DNA from: Winogradskyella algicola
Lineage (GTDB): Bacteria; Bacteroidota; Bacteroidia; Flavobacteriales; Flavobacteriaceae
DNA length: 64,000 nt
Assembly (NCBI RefSeq): GCF_005869935.1
Contig: NZ_SZQF01000002.1
Location: 62,001-126,000 of the forward strand
Reading direction: 5' to 3'
The position numbers were made by a program, and so were the translations under genes. Of the stretch, positions 19,980-33,150 are shown piece by piece; the first letter of the stretch is position 1; every line of letters begins with the position of its first letter. The notes beneath the pieces are model-generated. The model saw nothing but the letters and a program-made list of their open reading frames with translations. It was not told where the DNA came from and made no database searches.

Positions 19980-21956
19980 CTACTTCCTAAAATTCTCTAA
20001 ACCGGTTTTTAACCATTCGTAATAAGCATCTGCATCTGGCTCGTATGCTTTTGTAGAATTTAGCAATTCAAAATTATGATCTAGTAATGCGTAATATGGC
20101 TGAGAGTTGTTCTTAAAATTAATAGTTTGTAGTGTTTGCCACTTGTCACCAACAGTTTCTATTTCTTTTACAGTCCCATTACTTCTTAAGTATTGAAATT
20201 GCTCATCTTCTGGTAGTTTCTTTTTATCATCCACATAAAGCGAAATGATAACATAGTCTTCCATTAAAATATCATACACTTGGGATGTACTCCAAACTTG
20301 TTCTTCCATTTTACGGCAATTTACACAAGCCCAACCTGTAAAGTCTAATAAAATTGGTTTGTTTTCTGCCTTAGCTAATGCCAAACCACTCTCTAAATCT
20401 TTATCGCAATTAAGGTCTAGAGGACACTCTGATGTTTTTTCATAAATACTATAAAACATTGGTGGAGGAAAACCACTTAGCAGCTTCAAATTCGCCCATT
20501 TTGTATTGGTTAATCCCGGTACTAAGTAAATGACAAAAGCTATTACTAAAAACGCTGTAGTTAATCTTCCTTTACTCAATTTTTGCAAAGAACCATCATG
20601 TGGAAACTTAATTTTTCCAAATAGATACAAGGACAATCCTATGCCTATTATTATCCAAATTCCGATAAATATTTCACGTTTTAAAAGTCCCCAATGTTGA
20701 ACTAAATCTGCATTAGATAAAAATTTAAGTGCTAATGCCAATTCTATAAATCCTAAAACAACTTTGACGGTATTTAACCAACCACCAGATTTTGGTAAAG
20801 AATTTAACCACTTTGGAAACATTGCAAAAAGCGTAAAAGGTAAAGCTAAGGCTAAACCAAAACCACTCATTCCCATGGTAAGTTGAGTTGCACCACCATC
20901 TGCTGTTAATGAGCTACCCAAAAGCGTTCCTAAGATTGGACCTGTACACGAAAATGACACAATTGCAAGTGTTAGCGCCATAAAAAAGATACCGATAAAA
21001 CCTCCAATTTTATTTGCTCTACTATCCATAGCAGCACTCCATGATTGTGGTAGGGTTAATTCGTAGTATCCAAAAAAGGAAAAAGCAAATCCAATAAAAA
21101 TAGCGAAGAAGATAAGATTAAGCGTAACGTTTGTTGAAATGTTATTCAAAATTCCAGGATCTAAAGTATCTAGTAAATGAAATGGAATACTTAACAGAGC
21201 ATAGATTAAAAAGATGAAGAATCCATATAATAACGAGTTGAACAAGCCCTTTTTTGGGTCACCTGCACTTTTTGTAAAAAATGAAACCGTTAAAGGAATC
21301 ATAGGAAATACACATGGAGTCAACAAGGCTATTAAACCTCCTATAAAACCAAGAAAGAAAATTGATAGATTACTTTTCTCTTCAATAACTTCCGCTTTGT
21401 AATTATCCCAACCCGTTACGTTTAGGTTAAGACCTTCTGATAGCTGTTTACTTTTTTCGTCAATAACAATGTCTTCTTTAACGATTTCTGAACCATCTAA
21501 AGAAAAATTAAATAGAAAATCACTAGGTATACATTTTGAATCATCACAGGTTTGATAATCTACCTTGACGTCAATCTGTTTTAAGTCTTTATTAATTAGG
21601 CTTACTCTTTGCTTAAAAATAACCTCGTCTTTAAACTTTTTTACTTCTTCTTGAAAAATCTTATCATAAATTGTTGGCACATCTGGTTCGGAGGTTTTTC
21701 CTTCTAATTGATAGTTACCTTCAACATTTTGAAATTCAAAATAGGTTGTTGGAGCAAAGCTTTCTTCAGATGGTTGCTCTTGTGAGTAGATATACCAACC
21801 TTTATCTACATTGGCTTTAAAAATTAGTATAAATTCTGTGTCAGAAACTTTTTCAACTTCATAATCCCATTTAACAGGTTCTAATTCCTGAGAAAATAAA
21901 TTGAATGAAAAAAATAAGGATAGTAGGCTAAATAGAAAGACTTTTTTTGCTGTCAT
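19980..21956 (-). CDS. dsbD: Thiol:disulfide interchange protein DsbD
   Basis: Carries electrons from cytoplasmic thioredoxin to periplasmic thiol proteins. ATG 21956 gives 658 residues; the earlier ATG at 21977 would lie in the promoter box. The order is a signal peptide (MTAKKVFLFSLLSLFFSFNLFSQ), an N-terminal DsbD-alpha-like beta domain with DSKCIPS, an eight-span CcdA-like core with the redox cysteines in TPCVFPMIPLTV and SCTGPILG, and a C-terminal thioredoxin domain with CVNC. A block of redoxin, TlpA and rhodanese genes follows upstream on the same strand and likely contains its clients. Confidence 0.93.
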   Translation of the reverse strand: MTAKKVFLFSLLSLFFSFNLFSQELEPVKWDYEVEKVSDTEFILIFKANVDKGWYIYSQEQPSEESFAPTTYFEFQNVEGNYQLEGKTSEPDVPTIYDKIFQEEVKKFKDEVIFKQRVSLINKDLKQIDVKVDYQTCDDSKCIPSDFLFNFSLDGSEIVKEDIVIDEKSKQLSEGLNLNVTGWDNYKAEVIEEKSNLSIFFLGFIGGLIALLTPCVFPMIPLTVSFFTKSAGDPKKGLFNSLLYGFFIFLIYALLSIPFHLLDTLDPGILNNISTNVTLNLIFFAIFIGFAFSFFGYYELTLPQSWSAAMDSRANKIGGFIGIFFMALTLAIVSFSCTGPILGTLLGSSLTADGGATQLTMGMSGFGLALALPFTLFAMFPKWLNSLPKSGGWLNTVKVVLGFIELALALKFLSNADLVQHWGLLKREIFIGIWIIIGIGLSLYLFGKIKFPHDGSLQKLSKGRLTTAFLVIAFVIYLVPGLTNTKWANLKLLSGFPPPMFYSIYEKTSECPLDLNCDKDLESGLALAKAENKPILLDFTGWACVNCRKMEEQVWSTSQVYDILMEDYVIISLYVDDKKKLPEDEQFQYLRSNGTVKEIETVGDKWQTLQTINFKNNSQPYYALLDHNFELLNSTKAYEPDADAYYEWLKTGLENFRK

Positions 21957-21974
21957 AAATAAAGCATTAATAGG

Positions 21975-21982
21975 CAAATGTA
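21975..21982 (-). promoter_or_regulatory. -7 promoter box of dsbD
   Basis: TACATTTG on the minus strand, 18 bases before the chosen ATG at 21956. It decides against the ATG at 21977. Confidence 0.6.
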
Positions 21983-22053
21983 AACTTTGCGCTTTTATTT
22001 TTTCTTAAGAGTCGTCTAATTTATAAAAACCTTAAGAATTATGACCAAGGAAT

Positions 22054-22087
22054 AAAAAAAACCGAACAAATGTTCGGTTTTAATTTT
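22054..22087 (-). terminator. Terminator after rhodanese lipoprotein gene
   Basis: AAAACCGAACA (22058-22068) and TGTTCGGTTTT (22071-22081) form a near-perfect palindrome followed by T8 on the minus strand. It separates the rhodanese gene from dsbD. Confidence 0.8.
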
Positions 22088-22503
22088 TATGACTTTACTT
22101 CAATCTTTAGTTTATCTGAATGCTTCCATTTTGAAAGTCCACCTTCTAAATCATAAATTTTCTGAAAGCCAGCATCTTTAAGTTTTCGCGCACATTTTGC
22201 ACTTCTTACACCACCTTTACAATATAAAATTACAGGTTTTGCTTTATCTAATTTTGCTATGTCTTCTTCAAAAGTAGGAGAATTATAATCTATATTTTGA
22301 GAATTAGCTATGCGCTCTTCTTCATGCTCTTTTGGAGTACGAACATCTACTAATTGCACATCTTCTAACTCTAGTATAGATTGCATCTCTTCTGCGGTTA
22401 CAAGTTTTACCTCAGCATCTTCTATTTTGCTGTCCACGCAGCTCGTACCAAAACTAACAGCCATTAACAAACAGCCTATTATTACTAATCTTTTCATATG
22501 CAA
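22087..22503 (-). CDS. Rhodanese-domain lipoprotein
   Basis: The 138-residue protein has a lipoprotein signal peptide ending GTSC (about residue 22). The single rhodanese domain has LVDVRTPKEHEEERI and the active loop YCKGGVRSAKCARKL, whose Cys is the sulfur-accepting nucleophile, followed by GFQKIYDLEGGLSKW. It is probably a periplasmic sulfurtransferase. The start at MHMKR is ambiguous by two codons (ATG at 22503 or 22497). A second, cytoplasmic rhodanese gene lies 24 bases upstream. Confidence 0.9.
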   Translation of the reverse strand: MHMKRLVIIGCLLMAVSFGTSCVDSKIEDAEVKLVTAEEMQSILELEDVQLVDVRTPKEHEEERIANSQNIDYNSPTFEEDIAKLDKAKPVILYCKGGVRSAKCARKLKDAGFQKIYDLEGGLSKWKHSDKLKIEVKS

Positions 22504-22526
22504 ACAGCTTTTTTAGATTAATTTTA

Positions 22527-22850
22527 TTACTTAAAGGTTACCTCGCCTTGCCAATCTGTGATACCTCCAACCAAATTATAAGCATTTTTAAAACCCAATT
22601 GATTCATTATGGCACATGCTTGTGCGCTCCTACCTCCAGATTTACAGTATACATAATAATTCTTGGATTTATCTAATTGATCTATTTCATGGATAAAACC
22701 TTGACCTCTGTATATGTCTATATGAATAGCATTTGGGATAATGCCTTCATTAACTTCGTCTTGCGTTCTAACATCTAAAACAACAGAATTATTGTCTTCC
22801 TCTAGTTGTTTTGTCCAATCTTTTTGAGATAAATTCAATTTTTTTAGCAA
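22527..22850 (-). CDS. Rhodanese-like protein
   Basis: A 107-residue stand-alone rhodanese domain without a signal peptide: VVLDVRTQDEVNEGIIPNAIHIDI, then the active loop YCKSGGRSAQACAIM with the nucleophilic Cys, then GFKNAYNLVGGITDWQG. It may accept sulfane sulfur in the cytoplasm. It precedes the lipoprotein rhodanese on the same strand and probably shares its transcript. Confidence 0.9.
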   Translation of the reverse strand: MLKKLNLSQKDWTKQLEEDNNSVVLDVRTQDEVNEGIIPNAIHIDIYRGQGFIHEIDQLDKSKNYYVYCKSGGRSAQACAIMNQLGFKNAYNLVGGITDWQGEVTFK

Positions 22851-22894
22851 TTTTGATTAGACAAAATTAACATTTCCTTATGATATAGACGTAA

Positions 22895-22926
22895 AAAAAT
22901 CCGAAGTGTTACAACTTCGGATTTAA
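22895..22926 (-). terminator. Terminator of the tlpA-redoxin operon
   Basis: AAATCCGAAGT and ACTTCGGATTT arms, then T7 on the minus strand. It lies between the redoxin gene and the rhodanese pair. Confidence 0.8.
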
Positions 22927-22966
22927 TTTTAACATATTTTCTGTTTTTTTTACAGTTCTATTATAC

Positions 22967-23578
22967 CTAAACTTTTATGGTACAACCAATTGCGCGTGTT
23001 TCTTTAACTTCAATTTCTTTACCTTGTAATAAAGCGTCTACAGCATTTTCTACATACTTAGTTTTTACTGCACTAGCATCTTTATAATTGTCATCTATAG
23101 CACCAATGTACTTAACAATATTTCCTTTTTTAGTTTTTTCTAATAAATATACATGTGGTGTTTTTGTAGCACCATATTGCGGATATATTTTTTGACCCTT
23201 ATCCATTAAGTACGGAAAGGTAAATCCTTTTGCTTTTGCTCTTGCCTTCATAGCTTCCATATTGTCACCAGGTTTTACATCTGTGTTGTTTGGCATAATT
23301 GCAATTACAGGATAACCTTTAGATGCATATTTTTTATTTAGAGCTTCTACTCTATCTTCATAAGCTACAGCATATGGACAAGTGTTACAAGTAAAAACTA
23401 CAATAAAACCTTTTGCGTCTTTAAAATCTGACAAAGACACCATTTTACCGTCAATATTTTCTAAACTAAAATCGGTGGCAACATCACCAATTTTATAACC
23501 ACCTTCTTCTGTGGTTAAAGATAAAGCAGATAGTGTAAGCGTTAACACCATTACTGCAAGTAATTTTAGTGTATTCAT
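22967..23578 (-). CDS. Secreted redoxin (thioredoxin-like)
   Basis: The 203-residue protein has a signal peptide (MNTLKLLAVMVLTLTLSALS). The redoxin domain shows GKMVSLSDFKDAKGFIVVFTCNTCPYAVAYEDRV with a CxxC redox pair, then IIAIMPNNTDVKPGDNMEAMKARAKAKGFTFPYLMDKGQKIYPQYGATKTPHVYLL containing the cis-Pro. It resembles the AhpC/TSA-related redoxins. It is likely a periplasmic thiol reductase or peroxidase reduced by DsbD. It starts eight bases after the TlpA gene. Confidence 0.88.
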   Translation of the reverse strand: MNTLKLLAVMVLTLTLSALSLTTEEGGYKIGDVATDFSLENIDGKMVSLSDFKDAKGFIVVFTCNTCPYAVAYEDRVEALNKKYASKGYPVIAIMPNNTDVKPGDNMEAMKARAKAKGFTFPYLMDKGQKIYPQYGATKTPHVYLLEKTKKGNIVKYIGAIDDNYKDASAVKTKYVENAVDALLQGKEIEVKETRAIGCTIKV

Positions 23579-23585
23579 AGTCTTA

Positions 23586-24134
23586 TTAATTTAAAAATTG
23601 TTTTAGTTCTGTTTCTAATTCTTCTTTAGTGAACGACCTTTCATAAAACAGTCGTTTTTCTTTATTATAGATTATTGTAGCTGGTATAGCACCAGACCAG
23701 TCTTTATGAATTGCAGGTATCCACTTATTTTGATCTACATCATCAAAGGCTACAACTTCTGACTGTAAATCTCTTTTCGCAATAAATGGTATCAATTTAG
23801 ATTCATAATTCCTCGGAAAATCTAAGCTTACTAAAAGCACCTCTACATTTTTATCTTTATACTCTTGGTTAATTTCTTCAAAAAATGGTAATTCTTTTAC
23901 ACAAGGAGCACACCAAGTTGCCCAAAAGTTAACCACATGTACTTTATCGTCGCTTTTATTGATTAATGGTTCTAAGCCATCGTAGTCATAAATTTCTAAA
24001 TCAAAATCTACAGTGTTCTTGGTTTTCTTTTCTGTAATTAAAACACTCTTAGATTTATCTGATAAACTTACATCCTTGTCCTTGTTCTTACAAGAACAAA
24101 TAATTAAAAGAGATAATATGATTAATCGCTTCAT
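23586..24134 (-). CDS. TlpA-family thiol-disulfide reductase lipoprotein
   Basis: The 182-residue protein begins with a lipoprotein-type signal (MKRLIILSLLIICSC, Cys13 or Cys15). The thioredoxin fold has VHVVNFWATWCAPCVKELPFFEEINQEYK with the WCAPC redox site, and SGAIPATIIYNK as the cis-Pro loop. It probably reduces periplasmic disulfides, fed by DsbD, for example in cytochrome c maturation. It is the first gene of a two-gene operon with the redoxin and diverges from marR. Confidence 0.92.
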   Translation of the reverse strand: MKRLIILSLLIICSCKNKDKDVSLSDKSKSVLITEKKTKNTVDFDLEIYDYDGLEPLINKSDDKVHVVNFWATWCAPCVKELPFFEEINQEYKDKNVEVLLVSLDFPRNYESKLIPFIAKRDLQSEVVAFDDVDQNKWIPAIHKDWSGAIPATIIYNKEKRLFYERSFTKEELETELKQFLN

Positions 24135-24188
24135 TTTATAAAGTTATTAATAGAATTATTTAAGATTGAATAATTAACAAAATATTAA

Positions 24189-24218
24189 TTGTAAATATAA
24201 AACAAGACCATATATTTG
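24189..24218 (+). promoter_or_regulatory. Promoter of marR-yceI (TTG-N19-TATATTTG)
   Basis: TTG at 24189-24191 and TATATTTG at 24211-24218 are separated by 19 bases, a full match to the Bacteroidota promoter. Confidence 0.75.
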
Positions 24219-24219
24219 T

Positions 24220-24238
24220 ATATACAATTATTGTATAT
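24220..24238. promoter_or_regulatory. Probable MarR operator over the marR start codon
   Basis: ATATACAATTATTGTATAT is a perfect 8-bp inverted repeat with a TTA spacer. It begins right after the -7 box and ends inside the ATG at 24237, so a bound MarR dimer would block the transcription start of its own operon. Confidence 0.65.
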
Positions 24239-24695
24239 GGAAGAGTTAAAAAAAATATTAAAATCTAACGCAGATATACCTTTAGCCAAAGCAAGTATTA
24301 TTAATATTTTTCACACATCCATGTGGATTAAAGACGAAATTCTACTACAATTAAAACCTTATGATTTATCTATAGAACAATTTAATGTTTTAAGGATACT
24401 GAGAGGTCAAAAGGGAAATCCTATCAATCTTCAAGACATTCAAGAACGCATGGTTAGTAAAATGAGTAATACAACACGATTGGTAGATAAGCTTATAAAA
24501 AAGGGATTTGTAGATCGTAATATATGCCCAACCAATCGTAGAAAGGTTGAAATAATAATTACAAAAAACGGCCTAAATGCTTTAAAAGAAGTTGATCCAA
24601 TTGTAGAGGCTACTGAAAACAAGTTAACCAATAATCTTACACACGAAGAACTAGAACAATTAAATAAACTTTTAATAAAACTTAAAAACAAATAA
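24237..24695 (+). CDS. MarR-family transcriptional regulator
   Basis: ATG 24237 (MEELKKILKSNADIP) gives 152 residues; the 7-residue extension upstream would begin in the promoter. The MarR layout is clear: dimerisation helix IINIFHTSMWIKDEILLQLKPYDLSIEQFNVLRILR, winged HTH with LQDIQERMVSKMSNTTRLVDKLIKKGFVDRNICPTNRRKVEIIITKNG, then C-terminal helix LTHEELEQLNKLLIKLK. It is probably autoregulatory through the palindrome at 24220-24238. yceI follows after five bases. The signal (oxidant, phenolic, lipid) is unknown. A single Cys in the wing (RNICPTNRR) could be redox-sensing. Confidence 0.92.
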   Translation: MEELKKILKSNADIPLAKASIINIFHTSMWIKDEILLQLKPYDLSIEQFNVLRILRGQKGNPINLQDIQERMVSKMSNTTRLVDKLIKKGFVDRNICPTNRRKVEIIITKNGLNALKEVDPIVEATENKLTNNLTHEELEQLNKLLIKLKNK

Positions 24696-24700
24696 TTATT

Positions 24701-25270
24701 ATGAAAAACAGAAATTCAAAATTCGCCATGCTATTTGTCTTAGCATTATCTTTTATGTCATTTACAATCTTAAAAGACAAAAAAGTAGATGTATCAACAA
24801 GTAAAGTAACATGGAAAGGTTACAAAGTTGGTGGTGAGCACGAAGGAACAATTAAACTAAAAGAAGGTTCTTTATCATTTAATGGAGAGGCTTTAGAAGG
24901 TGGCACTTTTACTATCGACATGACTTCTATTAACACTACAGATTTATCTGGTGACTATAAAGCGAAGTTAGATGGTCATTTAAAATCCGATGATTTCTTC
25001 GGTGTAGAAGAATATCCAACAGCGACTTTAACAATCACTTCGGTGAGTGGTGACAACGGAGAATACAATGTTAAAGGCGACATTACCATAAAAGGAATAA
25101 CAGAATCTATTTCTTTTCCTATGACTGTTACTGAAAACTCTGCAACCGCAAATTTAAAAATCGACAGAACAAAGCACAAAATCACTTACAAATCGCCTTC
25201 ATTATTAGAAACATTAAAAGATAAAGCTATCTATGATGAATTTGATATAAACGTAGAATTAAAGTTTTAA
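24701..25270 (+). CDS. YceI-family periplasmic lipid-binding protein
   Basis: The 189-residue protein has a signal peptide (about 1-24) and the YceI lipocalin-like barrel: VDVSTSKVTWKGYKVGGEHEGTIKLKEGSLSFNGE, GTFTIDMTSINTTDLSGDYKAKLDGHLKSDDFFGVEEYPTATLTITS and DITIKGITESISFPMTV are all family hallmarks. Members bind polyisoprenoids or other amphiphiles in the periplasm. It is in one operon with marR and ends at a strong terminator. Confidence 0.94.
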   Translation: MKNRNSKFAMLFVLALSFMSFTILKDKKVDVSTSKVTWKGYKVGGEHEGTIKLKEGSLSFNGEALEGGTFTIDMTSINTTDLSGDYKAKLDGHLKSDDFFGVEEYPTATLTITSVSGDNGEYNVKGDITIKGITESISFPMTVTENSATANLKIDRTKHKITYKSPSLLETLKDKAIYDEFDINVELKF

Positions 25271-25301
25271 TTCCCTGAGGATTAATAGTAATCCTTGTTA
25301 T

Positions 25302-25350
25302 AAAGATTCTTGTCTTAGTAAATAATTTACATGAAGACAAGAATCTTTTT
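25302..25350 (+). terminator. Terminator of marR-yceI operon
   Basis: AAAGATTCTTGTCTT (25302-25316) and AAGACAAGAATCTTT (25334-25348) form a 15-bp perfect stem followed by T6. It insulates the trp promoter, which begins just after. Confidence 0.9.
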
Positions 25351-25361
25351 TATGATATAGT

Positions 25362-25391
25362 TTGAAATAAAGATTTTCATTTCTATATTTG
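25362..25391 (+). promoter_or_regulatory. trp operon promoter
   Basis: TTG (25362-25364), 19 bases, TATATTTG (25384-25391), a full match to the Bacteroidota promoter. The transcription start would fall near 25396, only a few bases before the leader ATG at 25400, so the leader is nearly leaderless. Confidence 0.8.
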
Positions 25392-25399
25392 ATGCATCA

Positions 25400-25456
25400 A
25401 TGAAAACAATAACAAATCATACTTGGTGGTGGAATTTTGCAAACGCGCGTTCGTGA
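25400..25456 (+). CDS. trpL: trp operon leader peptide
   Basis: An 18-codon ORF, MKTITNHTWWWNFANARS, with three consecutive Trp codons (25424-25432). It lies directly after a consensus promoter and before a terminator hairpin and trpE. It is the classic ribosome-mediated attenuation leader: ribosome stalling at scarce Trp-tRNA would change the folding of the downstream RNA. It is too short for standard gene calling. Confidence 0.9.
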   Translation: MKTITNHTWWWNFANARS

Positions 25457-25516
25457 AAGAAACCTTGTATGTAATATTATAGAAAAAGGCTTGTCATTCA
25501 CGACAAGCCTTTTTTA
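25451..25516 (+). terminator. trp attenuator (terminator and alternative stem)
   Basis: GGCTTGTC (25488-25495) pairs with GACAAGCC (25502-25509) over a six-base loop, flanked by A5 and T6: an intrinsic terminator 15 bases before trpE. TCGTGAA at 25451-25457, across the leader stop codon, is exactly complementary to TTCACGA at 25497-25503, which spans the terminator loop and right arm, giving a competing antiterminator. Confidence 0.82.
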
Positions 25517-25530
25517 ATTTTAAATCATAA

Positions 25531-26931
25531 ATGAAAACATTCAGTCTATACACACATTACAAAAAAATACTTGCAGATACCATTACTCCCGTAAGCATTT
25601 ATCTTAAGATTAGAGATAAATTTCCTAATAGCATTTTGCTAGAGAGTAGCGACTATCATGCCAATGACAATAGTTTTTCTTATATCTGTTGCAACCCAAT
25701 TGCTTCCATTAAAGTTAAGGATGGTTTAATTTCACAAACTTATCCAGACGGAAGTTCTAAAAACAACTTTGCAGAATCTATAGGTGTGGTAGAAGAAATC
25801 AACAAATTTACCCGACGATTTAAGGTAGATTCTAATGAAGACTTCAAATTTATAAATAACGGCATCTTTGGCTATACCGCTTACGATGCCGTAAAGTATT
25901 TTGAAGATATTGAAATTTCTAAGAAAGAAAATTCTATTGATATTCCAGATATTTATTATGCTGTATATCAAAACATCATTGCCATTAACCATTTTAAAAA
26001 CGAAGCTTACATTTTTGCACATTGTTTTGATACTGATAATAATATTGATGAGATACATCAAATTATTCAGACAAGGCAATATGCATCTTATAACTTCAAT
26101 GAAAAAGGAGATATTCAATCTAACCTAACCGATGAAGAATATAAACACCATGTTGATCTAGCTAAAAAACATTGTGCCAGAGGCGATGTCTTTCAACTGG
26201 TATTATCTAAACAATTTTCCCAAGAATTTAGTGGAGATGAATTTAATGTGTACAGAGCATTAAGAAGCATTAACCCTTCCCCTTACCTATTCTATTTTGA
26301 TTACGGAAGTTTTAAAATCTTCGGAAGTTCGCCAGAAGCACAACTAATCGTTAAAGAAGGGAAAGCCGAAATACATCCTATCGCAGGTACCTTTAAACGA
26401 ACAGGAAATGACCTTAAAGATGCAGAACTGGCAGAAAAGCTTATTAACGACGACAAAGAAAACAGCGAACATGTAATGTTGGTTGACCTCGCAAGAAACG
26501 ATCTTAGTAGGCATGGTTCTAATGTTACGGTAGAAAATTACAGAGAGGTGCAATTCTTTTCGCACGTTATTCACTTAGTAAGCAAGGTTACTGGAACCAA
26601 AAATAAAGAAACTGATACTATGCAAATCGTGGCAGATACATTCCCTGCAGGAACATTGAGTGGTGCACCAAAACACATGGCAATGCAACTCATAGAAAAA
26701 TACGAAAAAACAAGCCGTAGTTTTTACGGTGGTGCTATTGGTTTTATGGATTTTGAAGGCAATTTTAACCATGCCATTATGATTAGAACATTTTTAAGTA
26801 AAAACCACAAACTATTCTGGCAAGCAGGTGCCGGATTGGTCGCAAAATCCAGTCCGGAAAACGAACTACAGGAAGTCTATAATAAGTTAGGTGCTTTAAC
26901 AAAAGCTATTGAACTTGCTAAAGAAATATGA
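25531..26931 (+). CDS. trpE: Anthranilate synthase component I
   Basis: First committed step of tryptophan synthesis: chorismate plus ammonia (from TrpG) gives anthranilate. The 466 residues carry LLESS (about 34-38), the feedback-inhibition Trp pocket, and a C-terminal chorismate-binding domain with DEEYKHHVDLAKKHCARGDVFQLVLSKQF, PSPYLFYFDYGSFKIFGSSPEAQL, IAGTFKRTG, DLARNDLSRHG and FPAGTLSGAPKHMAMQLI. It is the first structural gene after the attenuator. Its stop codon TGA is the first unit of a TGATTAG tandem repeat. Confidence 0.97.
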   Translation: MKTFSLYTHYKKILADTITPVSIYLKIRDKFPNSILLESSDYHANDNSFSYICCNPIASIKVKDGLISQTYPDGSSKNNFAESIGVVEEINKFTRRFKVDSNEDFKFINNGIFGYTAYDAVKYFEDIEISKKENSIDIPDIYYAVYQNIIAINHFKNEAYIFAHCFDTDNNIDEIHQIIQTRQYASYNFNEKGDIQSNLTDEEYKHHVDLAKKHCARGDVFQLVLSKQFSQEFSGDEFNVYRALRSINPSPYLFYFDYGSFKIFGSSPEAQLIVKEGKAEIHPIAGTFKRTGNDLKDAELAEKLINDDKENSEHVMLVDLARNDLSRHGSNVTVENYREVQFFSHVIHLVSKVTGTKNKETDTMQIVADTFPAGTLSGAPKHMAMQLIEKYEKTSRSFYGGAIGFMDFEGNFNHAIMIRTFLSKNHKLFWQAGAGLVAKSSPENELQEVYNKLGALTKAIELAKEI

Positions 26932-26963
26932 TTAGTGATTAGTGATTAGTGATTAGTGATTAG
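26929..26963 (+). repeat. Tandem repeat (TGATTAG)x5
   Basis: Five exact 7-base units begin with the trpE stop codon. Because seven is not a multiple of three and each unit holds TGA and TAG, the array puts stop codons in all three frames. It lies in the trpE-trpG spacer. Confidence 0.85.
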
Positions 26964-27019
26964 TGAAAAATTGATTAAGGATGACAATAAAAACAAATAT
27001 TAATATATCAAAAAACAAA

Positions 27020-27054
27020 TTCCCTTTCCTCTGGAAAGGGTTAGGGATAGGCTT
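27020..27054 (+). repeat. CCCTTTCC/GGAAAGGG hairpin repeat before trpG
   Basis: CCCTTTCC-TCT-GGAAAGGG is followed by TTAGGGATAGGCTT and then immediately the trpG ATG. A near-identical copy precedes trpD at 27716-27750. The AGGGATAGG tail may act as a ribosome binding site. Confidence 0.8.
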
Positions 27055-27621
27055 ATGAAAAAGGTTTTAGTAATCGACAATTACGATAGTTTCACTTACA
27101 ATTTAGTTCATTATTTAGAAGACTTAAATTGTGAAGTCACTGTAAAACGAAATGACAAATTAACACTTGAAGACGTAGATGCATTTGATAAAATAGTGCT
27201 CTCACCTGGTCCTGGAATACCAGAAGAAGCCGGACTTTTAAAAGACATTATTACTAAATACGCACCAACAAAAAGTATACTCGGTGTTTGTTTAGGACAA
27301 CAAGCTATTGGTGAAGTTTTTGGTGGCACACTAGAAAATCTAGATACAGTTTATCATGGTGTTGCAACACATGTAACGCTTTCTGTTGATGATGAGCCAT
27401 TATTTAAAGGCATAGATAAAACCTTTGAAGTTGGCAGATATCACTCTTGGGTAGTGAGCAACAATTTACCAGAGGTATTAGAAGCTACTTCATTTGATAC
27501 CAATGGGCAAATTATGTCATTAAGGCACAAAGTTTATGATGTAAAGGGTGTACAATATCATCCCGAATCTGTATTAACACCTGATGGGAAAAAGATTTTA
27601 GAAAATTGGGTGAATAGTTAA
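27055..27621 (+). CDS. trpG: Anthranilate synthase component II (glutamine amidotransferase)
   Basis: Supplies ammonia from glutamine to TrpE. The 188 residues form a class I amidotransferase: LVIDNYDSFTYNLVHYL at the start, LSPGPGIPEEAG as the oxyanion strand region, nucleophile Cys79 in GVCLGQQAIG, and His169/Glu171 in YHPESVLTP. The size fits a stand-alone TrpG. The CCCTTTCC hairpin repeat ends at the base before the ATG. Confidence 0.97.
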   Translation: MKKVLVIDNYDSFTYNLVHYLEDLNCEVTVKRNDKLTLEDVDAFDKIVLSPGPGIPEEAGLLKDIITKYAPTKSILGVCLGQQAIGEVFGGTLENLDTVYHGVATHVTLSVDDEPLFKGIDKTFEVGRYHSWVVSNNLPEVLEATSFDTNGQIMSLRHKVYDVKGVQYHPESVLTPDGKKILENWVNS

Positions 27622-27623
27622 AA

Positions 27624-27657
27624 GCCCTTCCTAAATCCTTCCCAAAGGGAAGGACTT
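27624..27657 (-). repeat. Inverted copy of the CCCTTTCC hairpin family
   Basis: CCTTCC, CCTTCCC-AAA-GGGAAGG: related in reverse orientation to the units at 27020 and 27716. It lies in the trpG-trpD spacer. Confidence 0.6.
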
Positions 27658-27715
27658 AAAAAGACAAAAAGATGGAAAAAATTGACTTAAATAATATTTA
27701 ATTAAACAAACTAAA

Positions 27716-27750
27716 TTCCCTTTCCTTCGGAAAGGGTTAGGGATAGGCCT
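27716..27750 (+). repeat. CCCTTTCC/GGAAAGGG hairpin repeat before trpD
   Basis: CCCTTTCC-TTC-GGAAAGGG followed by TTAGGGATAGGCCT and the trpD ATG. It matches the unit before trpG except at about three bases. Confidence 0.8.
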
Positions 27751-28746
27751 ATGAAAGAAATTTTAAACAGACTAATAAATCAAGAAAGCATCTCAGCAGA
27801 AGAAGCCAAAAGCGTTTTAGTGAATATTTCAAGTGGTGTATACAATCAAAGCCAGATTGCTTCTTTTTTAACCGTCTACATGATGCGAAGTATTACTACA
27901 GAAGAACTTCGTGGTTTTAGAGATGCCTTATTAGAACTATGTATTCCTGTTGAATTAGATGGTTATAATACTATTGATTTATGTGGTACAGGTGGTGATG
28001 GTAAAAATACGTTTAATATATCAACCCTATCCTCGTTTGTCACTGCTGGTGCTGGAGTACACGTAACAAAACATGGAAATTATGGTGTCTCATCTGCATC
28101 AGGATCCTCTAACGTTATGGAGCATTTAGGTATAAAATTTTCTAATGACATCGATTTTTTAAAACGCAGTTTAGATAAAGCAGGCATTTGTGTTTTGCAT
28201 GCACCTCTTTTTCACCCTGCCATGAAAAATGTGGCACCAATACGTAAGGAGCTTGGTGTAAAAACCTTTTTTAATATGCTAGGTCCAATGGTAAATCCTG
28301 CATTTCCAAAAAATCAAATGGTTGGAGTTTTTAATTTAGAATTACTCAGACTCTATGGTTATTTATACCAAGAAACTGATAAAAATTACGCTATAGTACA
28401 TGCTTTGGATGGTTATGATGAAATTTCGTTAACGGGAAAAACAAAAACAATTACCAATACTTCCGAAACTTTATTTGAAGCTCAAGACATTGGCTTAGAA
28501 CAAATCGATGCTTCAGATATTTATGGCGGATCTACTGTAAAAGAAGCAGCTAAAATTTTCAAAAAAATTATTAACGGAAAGGGAACCAAAGCTCAAAATA
28601 ACGTAGTCTGCGCAAATGCTGGTTTGGCCATAGCAACGGTAAAACAAATTACACACAAAGAAGGTATTGCAATGGCTGAAGAATCCTTAAAAAGTGGTCT
28701 TGCAAAATCTAGCCTTGAAAAATTGATTACGTTGAGCGATAAATAA
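27751..28746 (+). CDS. trpD: Anthranilate phosphoribosyltransferase
   Basis: Transfers phosphoribosyl from PRPP to anthranilate. The 331 residues show the class signature DLCGTGGDGKNTFNIST (PRPP-binding glycine-rich loop), VTKHGNYGVSSASGSSNVMEHLG, and the DEISLTGKT segment near 232 with acidic metal ligands. The length is that of a stand-alone TrpD (about 330-340). It follows trpG after 129 bases of repeat-filled spacer. Confidence 0.97.
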   Translation: MKEILNRLINQESISAEEAKSVLVNISSGVYNQSQIASFLTVYMMRSITTEELRGFRDALLELCIPVELDGYNTIDLCGTGGDGKNTFNISTLSSFVTAGAGVHVTKHGNYGVSSASGSSNVMEHLGIKFSNDIDFLKRSLDKAGICVLHAPLFHPAMKNVAPIRKELGVKTFFNMLGPMVNPAFPKNQMVGVFNLELLRLYGYLYQETDKNYAIVHALDGYDEISLTGKTKTITNTSETLFEAQDIGLEQIDASDIYGGSTVKEAAKIFKKIINGKGTKAQNNVVCANAGLAIATVKQITHKEGIAMAEESLKSGLAKSSLEKLITLSDK

Positions 28747-28806
28747 GAAATCTGTGTATAGTAAGTAATAAGAACATAATACACTGATTGCTAAATACTT
28801 AGTACC

Positions 28807-28838
28807 GAACACTGAACACTGAATACTGAATACTGAAA
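28807..28838 (+). repeat. Tandem ACTGAATACTGAA repeats before trpC
   Basis: Degenerate 9-base units (CTGAACA, CTGAATA) repeat three to four times up to the trpC ATG. Similar text (ACTGACACTGAAAACT) occurs near 15068. Confidence 0.6.
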
Positions 28839-28839
28839 C

Positions 28840-29628
28840 ATGAACATCCTAGATAAAATAGTCATTGACAAACGCAAAGAAGTTGCACTTCGAAAAAGCC
28901 TGATTCCTTTAAAACAATTGGAAACTTCAGTGCTTTTTGAAAGATCAACAATTTCACTTTCTAAAAGTCTAAAAAACAGCACTTCTGGTATTATTGCAGA
29001 ACATAAAAGACGTTCACCATCTAAAGCTGTGATCAACCAAAACTTGGATGTGCAAGATGTTGCTAAGGGTTATGAAGATGCTGGTGTTTGTGGCATGTCT
29101 GTGCTTACAGATGGAAAATATTTTGGTGGTTCTTTAGACGATTTATTATTAGCTAGAGCCAGTTGCAATTTGCCACTATTACGCAAAGAATTTATTATTG
29201 ACACCTATCAAATCTTAGAAGCCAAAGCTTACGGTGCAGATGTCATTTTATTGATTGCTGCAATCCTGACTAAGGAAGAAATAAAGCAATTTTCAGAATT
29301 CGCGAAAAGCTTAAAGCTAAATGTTTTACTTGAGGTTCATGATTTAGAAGAGCTTCAAAAATCCATTATGCCATCTATTGATATGTTAGGAGTTAATAAT
29401 AGAAATTTAAAAACTTTTGAAGTAAGCTTAGAAACATCAAAAACATTGAGCAACCACATACCAGATGATTTTGTAAAAGTTTCAGAAAGTGGTATCAGTT
29501 CTATTGAAGCCATAAAGGAATTACAACCTTATGGTTATAAAGGGTTTTTAATTGGTGAAAATTTTATGAAAACTGATAATCCAGGAGAGAGTGCAACAAA
29601 ATTTATAAAAGACCTAGCAGGTTTTTAA
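28840..29628 (+). CDS. trpC: Indole-3-glycerol-phosphate synthase
   Basis: Converts carboxyphenylamino-deoxyribulose phosphate to indole-3-glycerol phosphate; (beta/alpha)8 barrel, 262 residues. MNILDKIVIDKRKEV at the start and GIIAEHKRRSPSKA carry the conserved catalytic Lys/Ser. LLRKEFIIDTYQILEAKAYGADVILLIAA, LLEVHDLEEL, LGVNNRNLKTFEV and VSESGISSIEAIKELQ complete the signature. It is separate from trpF, as usual in Bacteroidota. Confidence 0.97.
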   Translation: MNILDKIVIDKRKEVALRKSLIPLKQLETSVLFERSTISLSKSLKNSTSGIIAEHKRRSPSKAVINQNLDVQDVAKGYEDAGVCGMSVLTDGKYFGGSLDDLLLARASCNLPLLRKEFIIDTYQILEAKAYGADVILLIAAILTKEEIKQFSEFAKSLKLNVLLEVHDLEELQKSIMPSIDMLGVNNRNLKTFEVSLETSKTLSNHIPDDFVKVSESGISSIEAIKELQPYGYKGFLIGENFMKTDNPGESATKFIKDLAGF

Positions 29629-29655
29629 AACCTAGCATGTCTAAAACAAAACAAA

Positions 29656-29680
29656 GATTCCTGCCTTTGCAGCAATGACA
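29656..29680 (+). repeat. GATTCCTGCC...GCAATGAC repeat before trpF
   Basis: It contains a spurious in-frame ATG at 29675. Its reverse complement is the second repeat inside trpF at 30262-30285, and related units occur near 7871 and 31784. Confidence 0.6.
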
Positions 29681-29686
29681 GAAATT

Positions 29687-30397
29687 ATGAAAATCAAAAT
29701 CTGTGGAATGAAATATAATACAGCCGAAGTTGCAGCACTGCAACCAGACTATCTTGGCTTTATATTTTACGACAAATCACCTCGTAATTTTGAAGGTGTC
29801 ATTCCAGATTTGCCAAAGTCAATCAAAAAAGTTGGTGTTTTTGTTGATGAAACAATTGACGTTATTATTCAGAAAATTAAAAAATTTGGACTTGATGCGA
29901 TTCAGTTGCATGGTAATGAATCTCCTGATTATTGTAAAATCCTAAAACGTCATTACGAGAAGCGGAGCGACGAAGTAATCTCATCAAAAGAGACAGATTG
30001 CCAAGCCCTGACAAAAAGCGTCAGGACTCGCAATGACAGACCAATTGAAATCATCAAAGTCTTCAGCATCAAAGATAAATTCGACTTTAGTCAACTGCAA
30101 CCTTATGAAGATGTAGTAGATTATTTTCTATTCGACACCAAAGGAAAATTACCTGGTGGAAACGGATACACCTTTAATTGGGATGTATTAAAAGCGTATC
30201 CATCAACAAAACCATATTTTTTAAGTGGTGGTATTGGCTTAGAAGAAATGGACAAGGTTTTGTCATTCATGCGAAGGCAGGAATCTAAATATTGCTATGC
30301 TATAGACATCAATAGCAAATTTGAAATTAAGCCTGGTTTGAAGGCTTTTGAAGAACTAGAAGAATTTAAAAAATACGTCACTTCGAGTGATTTTTGA
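29687..30397 (+). CDS. trpF: Phosphoribosylanthranilate isomerase with repeat insertions
   Basis: Isomerises N-phosphoribosylanthranilate. ATG 29687 (MKIKICGMKY) is chosen because the earlier ATG at 29675 lies in a repeat. The 236 residues are about 30 longer than usual. The core is intact: KICGMK with the catalytic Cys, DYLGFIFYDKSPR, KKVGVFVDE, AIQLHGNESPDYC, DYFLFDTKG with the catalytic Asp, FLSGGIG and AIDINSKFEIKPGLK. Between CKILK and IEIIKVFSI an in-frame insert from a dispersed repeat adds about 30 residues. A second repeat encodes SFMRRQES near the C-terminal helices, and a third provides the last residues VTSSDF. Confidence 0.93.
   Translation: MKIKICGMKYNTAEVAALQPDYLGFIFYDKSPRNFEGVIPDLPKSIKKVGVFVDETIDVIIQKIKKFGLDAIQLHGNESPDYCKILKRHYEKRSDEVISSKETDCQALTKSVRTRNDRPIEIIKVFSIKDKFDFSQLQPYEDVVDYFLFDTKGKLPGGNGYTFNWDVLKAYPSTKPYFLSGGIGLEEMDKVLSFMRRQESKYCYAIDINSKFEIKPGLKAFEELEEFKKYVTSSDF
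29949..30037. repeat. Repeat element inserted in frame in trpF
   Basis: Bounded by GTCATTACGAG (29949-29959) and its near-complement CTCGCAATGAC (30027-30037). The interior holds AGCGACGAAGTAATCT and AGATTGCCAAG as further inverted parts. It resembles the widespread GTCATTGCGAG palindromic element. The reading frame stays open throughout. Confidence 0.8.
30262..30285 (-). repeat. Second repeat inside trpF
   Basis: GTCATTCATGCGAAGGCAGGAATC is close to the reverse complement of the unit at 29656-29680. In the trpF frame it encodes SFMRRQES. Confidence 0.6.
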
Positions 30398-30535
30398 AGA
30401 ATGAAAAAATTGTATCGAGAAGTATTTGGTTCTGATATAAAATTCCATCAGATTTAATTCGATCTGACAAAATAAAATAAGATCCTGAAACAACACTTCG
30501 ACAAGCTCAGTGTGACAGTTCAGGCTAACAAAAAA
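30377..30535. repeat. Repeat cluster at trpF-trpB junction
   Basis: GTCACTTCGAGTG overlaps the trpF stop codon, TATCGAGAAGT follows at about 30413, and 30483-30523 is the CTGAAACAACACTTCGACAAGCTCAGTGTGACAGTTCAG-type double hairpin (also at 33095 and reversed at 36833). There is no ORF here. Confidence 0.65.
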
Positions 30536-30537
30536 CT

Positions 30538-31725
30538 ATGAAAAACACATACAACATCAACGACAAGGGTTACTACGGTGAATTTGGTGGTGCCTTTATT
30601 CCAGAAATGCTCTACCCTAATGTAGAAGAACTACGCCAAAACTATCTAAAAGTAATGGCAGAACCATCTTTTCAAGAAGAGTTTAATCAATTACTTAAGG
30701 ATTATGTTGGTCGTCCTTCCCCTCTCTATTTTGCCAAACGCCTTTCTGAAAAGTACAATACCAAGGTGTATTTAAAACGTGAAGATCTCAATCACACTGG
30801 TGCACATAAGGTTAATAATACCATAGGACAAATTCTTATGGCAAAACGCTTGGGCAAAAACAGAATTATTGCCGAAACTGGTGCAGGACAACATGGTGTT
30901 GCTACAGCCACAGTTTGTGCACTAATGGGAATGGAATGTATTGTTTACATGGGAGAAATTGACATTGCCAGACAAGCTCCAAACGTTGCTCGTATGAAAA
31001 TGCTAGGTGCAGAAGTGAGACCTGCATTGTCAGGAAGTAGAACACTAAAAGATGCAACCAACGAAGCGATTAGGGATTGGATTAATAATCCAGTTGATAC
31101 ACATTACATTATTGGCTCAGCTATTGGTCCACATCCCTATCCTGATATGGTGACGCGATTTCAATCTGTTATTTCAGAAGAAATAAAATGGCAACTCAAA
31201 GAAAAAGAAGGTAAAGAAAATCCTGATTATGTGGTGGCTTGTATTGGTGGCGGCAGTAATGCTGCAGGCACATATTATCACTTTTTAGACGATGAAAACA
31301 TTGGTATCATTGCTGTTGAAGCTGCAGGTAAAGGCATTCATACTGGTGAAAGCGCTGCGACTTCAGCATTAGGCAAAGAAGGTATAATTCATGGTTGCAA
31401 AACCTTATTAATGCAAACTGACGATGGTCAAATCACAGAACCTTACTCTATTTCTGCAGGATTAGATTATCCTGGTGTTGGTCCATTACATTCGCATTTA
31501 TACAAATCTGGTCGTGGTGAATTTTACTCTGCAACAGATGACGAAGCCATGCAAGCAGGATTAGAATTGACCAAGCTAGAAGGTATAATACCAGCCATAG
31601 AAACAAGCCACGCTTTAGCTGTATTTAAACACAAGACCTTTAAACCAGAAGATATTGTTGTCATCAGCTTATCTGGCCGTGGTGATAAAGATTTACAAAA
31701 CTATATTGATTATTTCGGACTTTAG
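30538..31725 (+). CDS. trpB: Tryptophan synthase beta chain
   Basis: PLP-dependent condensation of indole with serine. The 395 residues show GEFGGAFIPEML, REDLNHTGAHKVNNTIGQ with the PLP Lys91, AETGAGQHGVATA, the phosphate-binding CIGGGSNAAGTYY and SLSGRGDKDL near the C-terminus. The length is that of a TrpB1-type subunit that pairs with TrpA. trpA follows after 82 bases. Confidence 0.98.
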   Translation: MKNTYNINDKGYYGEFGGAFIPEMLYPNVEELRQNYLKVMAEPSFQEEFNQLLKDYVGRPSPLYFAKRLSEKYNTKVYLKREDLNHTGAHKVNNTIGQILMAKRLGKNRIIAETGAGQHGVATATVCALMGMECIVYMGEIDIARQAPNVARMKMLGAEVRPALSGSRTLKDATNEAIRDWINNPVDTHYIIGSAIGPHPYPDMVTRFQSVISEEIKWQLKEKEGKENPDYVVACIGGGSNAAGTYYHFLDDENIGIIAVEAAGKGIHTGESAATSALGKEGIIHGCKTLLMQTDDGQITEPYSISAGLDYPGVGPLHSHLYKSGRGEFYSATDDEAMQAGLELTKLEGIIPAIETSHALAVFKHKTFKPEDIVVISLSGRGDKDLQNYIDYFGL

Positions 31726-31728
31726 TCC

Positions 31729-31805
31729 GAATGCTGAACTAGATTCAGCATCTTATGAATTGAAGTTAGAGTTTAATTAAAAAGATACCTGCTTTCGCAG
31801 GCATA
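31729..31805 (+). repeat. Two short hairpins at trpB-trpA junction
   Basis: ATGCTGAA-CTAGA-TTCAGCAT (about 31731-31751) is a CTGAA-N5-TTCAG family member. GATACCTGCTTTCGCAGGCAT (31784-31804) is the CCTGC/GCAGG family and ends four bases before the trpA ATG. Confidence 0.65.
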
Positions 31806-31807
31806 AA

Positions 31808-32578
31808 ATGAACAGAATAAACCAAAAACTAAACGAAGACAAAAAACTACTGTCTATATACTTTACAGCAGGTTACCCAAATATTGATGATACCGTTTCT
31901 ATTATTCAAAATTTAGAACAAAGTGGTGTTGATATGATTGAAATCGGCCTACCTTTTAGCGATCCACTTGCTGATGGACCAACCATACAAGCCAGCTCGA
32001 CAGCTGCACTAAAAAATGGTATGACTACTGAAAAACTATTCGAACAACTTAAGGATATACGGCAGTCTGTATCGATACCGTTAATCATTATGGGCTATTT
32101 TAATCCTGTGTTGCAATATGGTGTTGAAGCCTTTTGTAAAAAATGCCAAGAGATCGGTATCGATGGATTAATTCTTCCAGATTTACCTGCAGATGTTTAT
32201 GACGAGGCATACAAAGCTATCTTTGAAAAATATGGTCTTATCAATGTGTTTTTAATTACACCTCAAACTTCAGAAGAACGTATTAGATATATCGATTCTA
32301 TTTCAAATGGATTTATTTATATGGTAAGCTCTGCGAGTACAACCGGTGCGCAATCTGGGTTTGGAGAAACACAAACCAATTATTTTGAACGTATTTCAAA
32401 AATGAACTTAAACAATCCGCAAATTGTTGGATTCGGAATATCAAATAACGACACATTCACCCAAGCTATAACTCATACCAAAGGTGCTATTATTGGTAGC
32501 GCTTTTATTAAATATATTTCTGAAAACGGGATAAACTATTTAAACAACTTTGTTAACCCTATACTTGGCAAGAATTAA
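31808..32578 (+). CDS. trpA: Tryptophan synthase alpha chain
   Basis: Cleaves indole-3-glycerol phosphate to indole and glyceraldehyde-3-phosphate; (beta/alpha)8 barrel, 256 residues. It shows SIYFTAGYPNIDDT, MIEIGLPFSDPLADGPTIQ with the catalytic Glu and Asp region, GLILPDLPADVYDEA, FLITPQTSEERI and VSSASTTGAQSGFG, and it ends with GFGISN and GAIIGSAFIKYI. It is the last gene of the operon. I see no strong terminator directly after it. Confidence 0.98.
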   Translation: MNRINQKLNEDKKLLSIYFTAGYPNIDDTVSIIQNLEQSGVDMIEIGLPFSDPLADGPTIQASSTAALKNGMTTEKLFEQLKDIRQSVSIPLIIMGYFNPVLQYGVEAFCKKCQEIGIDGLILPDLPADVYDEAYKAIFEKYGLINVFLITPQTSEERIRYIDSISNGFIYMVSSASTTGAQSGFGETQTNYFERISKMNLNNPQIVGFGISNNDTFTQAITHTKGAIIGSAFIKYISENGINYLNNFVNPILGKN

Positions 32579-32677
32579 TAGTTTTTAACAATTAAAACTT
32601 AGATTTTAAGATGCTTTTGGGACCTAAAAATGCTATAATTCCTTAAATTAAAAAAGAACACAAAAAACAAATAAATT

Positions 32678-32821
32678 ATGGGAATTATAGCAGATAAGAG
32701 AAAGTTTAAACCAACAAAAGAACAAAACAATCCAACAAATCCTACTGGTAATGTCAATCAATCAACAAATGAATTTGATATTGATGAAAGTACCATTAAG
32801 GATCAACAGAAGAAAAAATAA
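32678..32821 (+). CDS. Short ORF, 47 residues, Asn/Lys-rich
   Basis: Reads MGIIADKRKFKPTKEQNNPT and continues to a Lys-rich end with QQKKK. ATG 32678 follows AAAACAAATAAATT, a typical flavobacterial start context. The peptide is polar, low in complexity, and has no membrane segment. It fills the gap between trpA and a hairpin at 32845-32870. I do not recognise it and support it only by context and frame. Confidence 0.45.
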   Translation: MGIIADKRKFKPTKEQNNPTNPTGNVNQSTNEFDIDESTIKDQQKKK

Positions 32822-32844
32822 GGATTAAACCATAAAAATAATAG

Positions 32845-32875
32845 AGCCTGTTCATATCTTTGAACAGGCTTTCTT
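32845..32875 (+). terminator. Hairpin with -7 box in its loop
   Basis: AGCCTGTTCA (32845-32854) and TGAACAGGCT (32861-32870) form a 10-bp stem followed by TTCTT. The loop plus the first bases of the right arm spell TATCTTTG (32855-32862), a perfect -7 box 16 bases before the next ATG. It could be a terminator, a promoter, or both. Confidence 0.6.
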
Positions 32876-32877
32876 AT

Positions 32878-33093
32878 ATGAAAAAAATAATAAACGACTG
32901 GAAATTAGTTATTCTTCTATGTCTAACACTTGGCTTAGCTCCATTTTTCCCAGAGCCACATATTGTTGGTAAGCTAAGATGGCTTATAGGAGGTGCTAAT
33001 GGTATGACTGCAATGGATTATTTTGATGTATTGCTCCATGGATTTCCTTTTGTATTATTGTTGAGATTGATAATCGTTAAACTTAAAAAGTAA
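32878..33093 (+). CDS. Small membrane protein
   Basis: ATG 32878 (MKKIINDWKLVILLCLTLGL) gives 71 residues; a TTG start at 32860 would lie in the hairpin. Two membrane spans (about 8-25 and 50-66) flank a loop with PEPHIVGKLRWLIGGANGMTAMDYFD, a conserved-looking motif. I have the impression that such proteins are often mis-annotated as RND-transporter fragments; the function is unknown. Confidence 0.65.
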   Translation: MKKIINDWKLVILLCLTLGLAPFFPEPHIVGKLRWLIGGANGMTAMDYFDVLLHGFPFVLLLRLIIVKLKK

Positions 33094-33094
33094 G

Positions 33095-33143
33095 GTTCTG
33101 AAACAACACTCCGACTGCGCTCAGTGTGACAGTTCAGAATGAC
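33095..33143 (+). repeat. Double-hairpin repeat before trmL
   Basis: TTCTGAA...CACTCCGACTGCGCTCAGTG...TTCAGAATGAC: nested inverted repeats of the same family as 30483-30523 and 36833-36878. It contains a misleading ATG at 33139. Confidence 0.75.
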
Positions 33144-33150
33144 AATTATT

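Follow-up and report, generated by a model that had tools for sequence, protein, structure and literature searches.

The trp locus and its leader region

We analysed a stretch of 64,000 nucleotides from Winogradskyella algicola, hereafter the window, in which matches to NCBIfam profiles place a complete trpEGDCFBA operon downstream of a short leader region. For TrpG (at the subfamily level), TrpD, TrpC, TrpB and TrpA at least one Trp family scored above its cut-off; none did so for TrpF, and both TrpE and TrpF scored under the curated cut-offs of their best families. The trpF gene carries an apparent in-frame insert of ∼30 amino acids (HYEKRSDEVISSKETDCQALTKSVRTRNDRP, window 29951-30045). Several TrpF profile matches were broken into two stretches, and a second copy of the insert was not found in 643 kb of the genome. 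The terminator of the gene upstream leaves ∼50 bp as room for a promoter of the leader's own. The features of the region, in window coordinates, are as follows.

25303..25351, forward strand: intrinsic terminator of the upstream gene (fold of 25300-25352 at −19.8 kcal/mol, then a T-run)
25361..25364, forward strand: −33 element TTTG, read from the sequence, N19 to the −7 box
25377..25495, forward strand: match to Rfam RF01692 (Bacteroid-trp), model positions 1-131
25384..25391, forward strand: −7 box TATATTTG, a perfect match
25396..25397, forward strand: predicted transcription start, 4-5 nt past the box (calibrated on F. johnsoniae and F. psychrophilum), giving a 5'UTR of 3-4 nt
25400..25456, forward strand: leader peptide ORF MKTITNHTWWWNFANARS and stop, ATG at 25400, 18 codons, from sequence and conservation
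25418..25471, forward strand: sequestering hairpins of the MFE fold, which bury most of the antiterminator 5' strand, CAUAC/GUAUG and GGU/ACC, with inner UUUUGC/GUGAAA and AAC/GUU
25424..25432, forward strand: three Trp codons TGGTGGTGG
25451..25466, forward strand: antiterminator 5' strand, UCGUGAA followed by GA and CCUU (duplex of −13.5 kcal/mol with 25486-25503)
25482..25515, forward strand: intrinsic terminator, 14-bp stem, 6-nt loop and U-tract (−19.7 kcal/mol)
25486..25503, forward strand: antiterminator 3' strand, AAGG (terminator 5' arm), UC, and UUCACGA (loop and base of the 3' arm)
25531..26931, forward strand: trpE, anthranilate synthase component I, the first controlled gene (TIGR00564, E 4.5e-127, below the curated cut-off)
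27055..32578, forward strand: trpG, trpD, trpC, trpF, trpB and trpA (NCBIfam matches)

When the coordinates were rechecked, the promoter, the 18-codon ORF, the three Trp codons and the complementary 7-mers that a first-pass annotation had described at this locus were all in place. TCGTGAA (25451-25457) spans the TGA stop of the leader ORF, TTCACGA lies at 25497-25503, and the trpE ATG at 25531 is 15 nt past the attenuator terminator.

Membership of the RF01692 family

Of 4227 Rfam families compared with the locus by cmscan, RF01692 alone reached its gathering score, with 64.1 bits against a gathering score of 49 over the full model. The E. coli-type Trp leader (RF00513) was absent among the matches up to an E value of 5 in 20000-33500. 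Besides a score that extends over the whole model, the window leader shares with the family its phylum, trp biosynthesis genes downstream, and a short ORF with consecutive Trp codons within the consensus helix. As a member of RF01692, the attenuator is not new as a switch, and the first-pass term "unannotated" can apply only to gene tables, since the element is a named Rfam family. Nor is there support for calling attenuation unexpected in the Bacteroidota. RF01692 was published in 2010 in a table of Weinberg et al. (PMC2864571), and a term search of the main text of that paper finds the Bacteroid-trp motif in the table only. A 2019 paper notes the family upstream of the trp operon of F. psychrophilum (PMC6414381), and transcript maps of this species are described as giving strong clues for leader-peptide attenuation of amino-acid operons (PMC9723704).

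Genome surveys, run with stricter filters under which weak matches are lost, found RF01692 at an E value of 0.001 or better in 275 of 397 Flavobacteriaceae genomes (241 over the cut-off), and matches in 79 of 395 genomes of the order and 42 of 395 of the phylum. The Rfam model takes in the −7 box and some sequence ahead of it, which makes its first part probably promoter DNA and not RNA. At the other end it stops after the terminator's 5' arm, so that it lacks the loop and the 3' arm, and the antiterminator present in the window is not shown. The model's consensus helix corresponds in outline to the sequestering hairpins of the MFE fold, and many of the consensus pairs are non-standard in the window.

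Conservation of the leader ORF

Among the 80 TrpE loci nearest to that of the window (the best 80 of 577 confirmed loci, chosen without reference to the leader), 79 possess the leader, so the attenuator is not a chance occurrence; the lone exception, L102, has only 168 nt of upstream sequence. The nearest 22 TrpE relatives listed are Winogradskyella records, and in a TrpE tree (FastTree) the window falls in a set of 22 rows with 99% local support, all other members of which are Winogradskyella. Pooling yielded 221 loci, of which 214 were parsed and 200 were distinct over the leader; the seven unparsed loci (L102, L136-L139, L191 and L223) were read by eye, except for L102.

The 200 distinct leaders are strongly alike. 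Exactly 8 codons precede the first Trp in 190 of them, 196 have a run of three Trp codons and the other 4 have two, and the start codon is ATG in 192, TTG in 6 and GTG in 2. Where an ATG occurs between box and Trp codons it is in frame in 203 of 213 cases. Since the 8-codon distance, the frame and the start codons are kept in relatives, we place the start codon at 25400, and to judge from conservation the leader ORF is translated. In some relatives (L055, L056, L073, L067 and L194) a TTG or GTG start stands in frame upstream of WWW. Outside the Flavobacteriaceae we also noted the same leader before trpB or trpD, rather than trpE (L112, L117, L133, L136, L138 and L139).

Promoter and predicted length of the 5'UTR

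A perfect TAnnTTTG box is found upstream of 198 of the 200 distinct leaders. Of these 198, 181 also have a TTG whose end is 17-23 nt upstream of the box; at positions displaced by 12, 24 or 36 nt, which served as controls, the figure was 51 of 594. In the window the box ends 8 nt before the ATG. Start sites of many F. johnsoniae transcripts lie 4-5 nt downstream of the −7 box, which together with this spacing predicts a 5'UTR of ∼3-4 nt, in keeping with the start about four bases before ATG 25400 put forward in the first-pass annotation. The near-leaderless reading, with its predicted start, is thereby supported. In F. psychrophilum the box is reported at −12 to −5 and leaderless mRNAs make up 5.5% (PMC9723704), and ∼3.7% of the 5'UTRs of B. 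thetaiotaomicron are given as shorter than 10 nt (PMC7366714).

We compared this arrangement with the ordinary genes of the genome, taking the first ATG of each ORF of at least 120 amino acids as its putative start. In 643 kb, 73 of 456 such ORFs have a perfect box within 60 nt. Their spacings are 4-5 nt in nine cases, 6-7 in three, 8-11 in none, 12 in one and at least 14 in sixty, so that the trp leader of the window falls where its own genome has almost no ordinary genes. With nine ordinary genes at a spacing of 4-5, the genome seems to hold a leaderless gene class there. These candidate leaderless genes, whose first ATG follows a perfect box by 4-5 nt, are L142, L144, L151, L154, L260, L263, L270, L276 and L277.

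Spacing classes among relatives

The distance from box to ATG was collected for 221 leaders, a set that differs from the 221 pooled loci. It is an uneven sample, made up of the 80 nearest TrpE loci plus best-scoring or hand-picked RF01692 hits. Where two in-frame ATGs were present, the one 8 codons before Trp was taken as intended. Twenty-one values, including those of L137 and L223, were taken by reading rather than by script; the spacings of L019 and L232 were set by hand (a box with a mismatch or with G), and L136, L138, L139, L191 and L281 were left out because they lacked a perfect box or an ATG, or because the box was ambiguous. Raw counts are 37 leaders at 6 nt or less, 45 at 7-11, 3 at 12-13 and 136 at 14 or more. 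L195 was scored 2 by script and has a spacing of 8 from its 8-codon start, and with this correction the counts become 36, 46, 3 and 136; L166, scored 4, has a second possible box farther upstream.

Three spacing classes stand out, at exactly 5 nt, at 7-11 and at 14 or more, and few leaders lie between them. Within the shortest group there is a sharp mode at exactly 5 nt (32 of the 221 leaders), found in two families; in one genus of the other family all seven species with a match have this spacing (L137, L280 and L282-L286). A spacing of 5 implies a predicted 5'UTR of 0-1 nt, and a truly leaderless mRNA probably encodes the leader peptide in these relatives. The leaderless class, with 22 of the 147 rows of the TrpE tree, calls for at least 3 changes and the near-leaderless class (here 7-13 nt, 39 rows) for at least 8; the starred branches force 2 and 7 of these, respectively. 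Eight of 154 candidate loci were skipped in building the tree: L004, L112, L117 and L133 (insufficient TrpE), L011, L018 and L044 (duplicates), and L102 (without leader).

The same attenuator could nevertheless work with ordinary leadered initiation, either because transcription starts farther upstream or because the short 5'UTR is mere promoter drift without function. The spacing does vary between 7 and 11 nt within Winogradskyella, and the 8 nt of the window is off the genome's own leaderless peak of 4-5; the switch can do without a short leader, since 136 of 221 leaders have 14 nt or more. Against this, the terminator of the upstream gene ends at 25351, and TATATTTG is the sole box candidate between 25335 and the ATG with fewer than two mismatches. 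Moreover, the genus supplies 23 distinct leaders (that of the window, 21 from named Winogradskyella and L140), each of them within 7-11 nt, as opposed to 2 of the 73 ordinary genes whose box is no more than 60 nt away, and the mode at exactly 5 recurs in two families. We therefore consider leadered initiation, or drift, unlikely here, and proceed on the near-leaderless reading.

Folding and the proposed antiterminator/terminator switch

Folding of the leader RNA, suggested as a check in the first-pass annotation, bore out a stable structure: region 25396-25530 folds at −32.6 kcal/mol (z −3.94), a value matched by 1 of 200 shuffles. An inner hairpin of the unbound fold takes up most of UCGUGAA, and this hairpin lies within a helix to which the Trp codons also belong. 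The antiterminator (25451-25466 with 25486-25503) and the terminator are alternatives that share a segment. The pairing between them had been proposed beforehand as a classic switch, and this is real and right in outline. It was incomplete in its target, in that TTCACGA consists of five bases of the terminator loop and the first two of the 3' arm, not the 5' arm, which is reached in the window by the weaker extra pairs CCUU/AAGG.

We modelled a partial transcript ending at TTCACGA. With a ribosome at the first Trp codon the antiterminator forms at −14.0 kcal/mol, UCGUGAA, GA and CCUU being paired to UUCACGA, UC and AAGG; with the ribosome at the stop codon it cannot form (−1.9). The partial transcript without a ribosome also forms the antiterminator (−16.1), which is a weak point of the model. 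The full-length transcript in the model always prefers the terminator (−26.2 kcal/mol, versus −16.4 with the antiterminator forced). If the model is right, this second weak point means that the switch must be kinetic.

Pairing kept in relatives

In the Flavobacteriaceae UCGUGA has a conserved partner that consists chiefly of the terminator loop and the base of the 3' arm. Core positions 1-6 each form standard pairs in 50 to 55 of 55 distinct combinations, compared with only 27 and 26 of 55 for outer positions 0 and 7. The core varies little within the family, and position 3 is invariant in these combinations, so the evidence of covariation comes mostly from divergent leaders. In L137 and L280, which belong to another family, CAAAGUCUU stands in place of the core and has the terminator 5' arm itself (AAGACUUUG) as its partner. 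L138 pairs GGCAGCCU with GGGUUGCC, L195 has GUCGAU in place of GUCGUGA with a partner that changed along with the core, and L191, L281, L288, L292 and L297 have their own matched versions of the antiterminator.

We also compared matched with permuted partners. For 88 distinct, mostly close pairs the matched value was −9.07 and the swapped value −8.80 ± 0.08 (0 of 200 permutations as low); as this effect was small, divergent families were added. Nine leaders including divergent families gave −13.51 against −10.93 ± 0.82 (0 of 2000 as low). In a set of 21 leaders, picked for divergence plus three ordinary ones (W, L006 and L119), matched duplexes averaged −12.92 kcal/mol and permuted ones −10.32 ± 0.57, with 0 of 5000 as low when relatedness is ignored. 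L117, L289 and L295 were weaker than their own swapped means in this test; L295, for which the script chose the wrong hairpin, was kept in. In a 13-leader matrix a foreign partner, mostly a G+C-rich one, often beat the leader's own, so the evidence lies in the average. Conservation in relatives, the other comparison named in the first-pass annotation, extends to both the Trp codons and the pairing.

The 7-base complementarity might instead be a loop contact, a pseudoknot that stabilises or times the terminator, as its conserved Flavobacteriaceae partner, mainly loop and 3'-arm base rather than 5' arm, would allow. We regard this as improbable: CCUU/AAGG extends the pairing to the 5' arm in the window, the partner in L137 and L280 is the 5' arm itself, and UUCACGA directly abuts the rest of the 3' arm, so that both helices could hardly coexist. 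An antiterminator is the reading that we carry forward.

Proposed mechanism

We are highly confident that the locus holds a Bacteroid-trp (RF01692) ribosome-dependent transcription attenuator of trpEGDCFBA with a predicted 5'UTR of only 3-4 nt. This builds directly on the anatomy of the locus, its conservation, the pairing kept between partners and the promoter-to-start spacing. The ribosome-dependent trp attenuation put forward at first pass gains support from the conserved ORF and Trp codons, from the pairing and from the switch model. We infer a start site, ribosome stalling, a kinetic switch and a tryptophan response that would act together as follows. RNA polymerase would start at 25396/25397 and the ribosome would load almost at the 5' end. 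When charged tRNA-Trp is plentiful, the ribosome would get to the UGA at 25454 and cover UCGUGAA and much of the downstream extension, and the terminator would form. When tRNA-Trp is uncharged, the ribosome would stall at the Trp codons and melt the hairpin that hides UCGUGAA; the freed strand would pair with 25486-25503 once this is transcribed, ahead of the remaining 3' arm of the terminator, and trpE would be transcribed. That a protein or tRNA binds the leader in a TRAP-like or T-box-like response to tryptophan, with the ORF incidental, is compatible with the folding alone and very unlikely, since relatives keep the Trp codons, their 8-codon distance from the start, the start codon and the frame, and no Rfam family but RF01692 reached its gathering score.

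Search for other leaders

In 643 kb of the genome (the window included, plus L156-L158) a search for further leader peptides returned only the trp leader and one His-rich short ORF (window 45398-45526, box-like site at 45398). The latter lies antisense inside an ORF at 44990-45526 and is probably due to chance. Regions of ∼3.5 kb around hisG and two homoserine dehydrogenase genes, which may miss the operon starts, held no convincing leader, and the ILVD_EDD_N family had no match in the genome.

Comparison with known leaders

The trpL leader of E. coli has Trp codons, a stop near the antiterminator strand and a choice between antiterminator and terminator. A Shine-Dalgarno site lies in its long 5'UTR, and most of the antiterminator pairing involves the 5' arm of the terminator. 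In the window the antiterminator partner comprises the loop and a portion of each arm, and the 5'UTR is predicted to be far shorter. The view that a leaderless trp leader peptide is without precedent is not supported. Streptomyces lividans trpL1 (MFAHSTRNWWWTAHPAAH), with 18 amino acids and WWW, lies upstream of trpE and is reported to be transcribed leaderless; like the window leader it has 8 codons before the first Trp (PMC8079986). According to the same source this actinobacterium has 17% leaderless transcripts (PMC8079986); the likeness to our leader is one of the peptide. In the leaderless polycysteine attenuators of mycobacteria (Canestrari 2020), the elongation speed of a short ORF is described as controlling downstream genes (PMC9031893); a short ORF, leaderless there and predicted to be nearly so in the window, is common to both systems, which differ in the use of cysteine and in the mycobacterial host. 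The ilvBNC leader of Corynebacterium glutamicum is reportedly formed without a ribosome binding site, as the title of a cited reference has it, and the trpE leader of this species is said to have three consecutive Trp (PMC4046766). These too are leader peptides, of another phylum, and are likened to ours by description. The structured 5' regions of F. psychrophilum belong to flavobacterial amino-acid operons with the reported clues to attenuation (PMC9723704).

Leaderless leader peptides are thus already known elsewhere, namely in Streptomyces and mycobacteria, with C. glutamicum ilvBNC reported to lack a ribosome binding site. In the literature searched, with supplements and subscription journals outside the search, none was reported from the Bacteroidota. 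What this analysis adds is the short, lineage-fixed 5'UTR (as predicted), the sharp spacing classes, and an antiterminator that is missing from the Rfam model.

Significance

In the Bacteroidota most mRNAs are leadered, and Shine-Dalgarno pairing is hardly used by ribosomes. It is quite possible, if a little short of probable, that selection has made leaderless or near-leaderless initiation a device of attenuators in this phylum. In at least two lineages of the Flavobacteriaceae and in one further family the promoter would have shifted to one of a few set distances from the AUG of the leader (exactly 5 nt, or 7-11 nt). If so, a ribosome would load on the nascent RNA right at its 5' end and its coupling to RNA polymerase would be immediate, in cells with hardly any use of Shine-Dalgarno sites; conserved 5'UTRs of ∼2-7 nt, a length that ordinary genes of the genome almost never show, would then be a separate initiation class. 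The analysis also shows an RF01692 model that goes without the terminator loop, the 3' arm and the antiterminator. One regulatory peptide, nearly always with 8 codons before Trp, occurs in related species in natural versions predicted to be leaderless, near-leaderless and leadered. This natural series offers a means to ask in what way Bacteroidota ribosomes initiate at an AUG placed at the 5' end, and how the timing of attenuation depends on the length of the leader.
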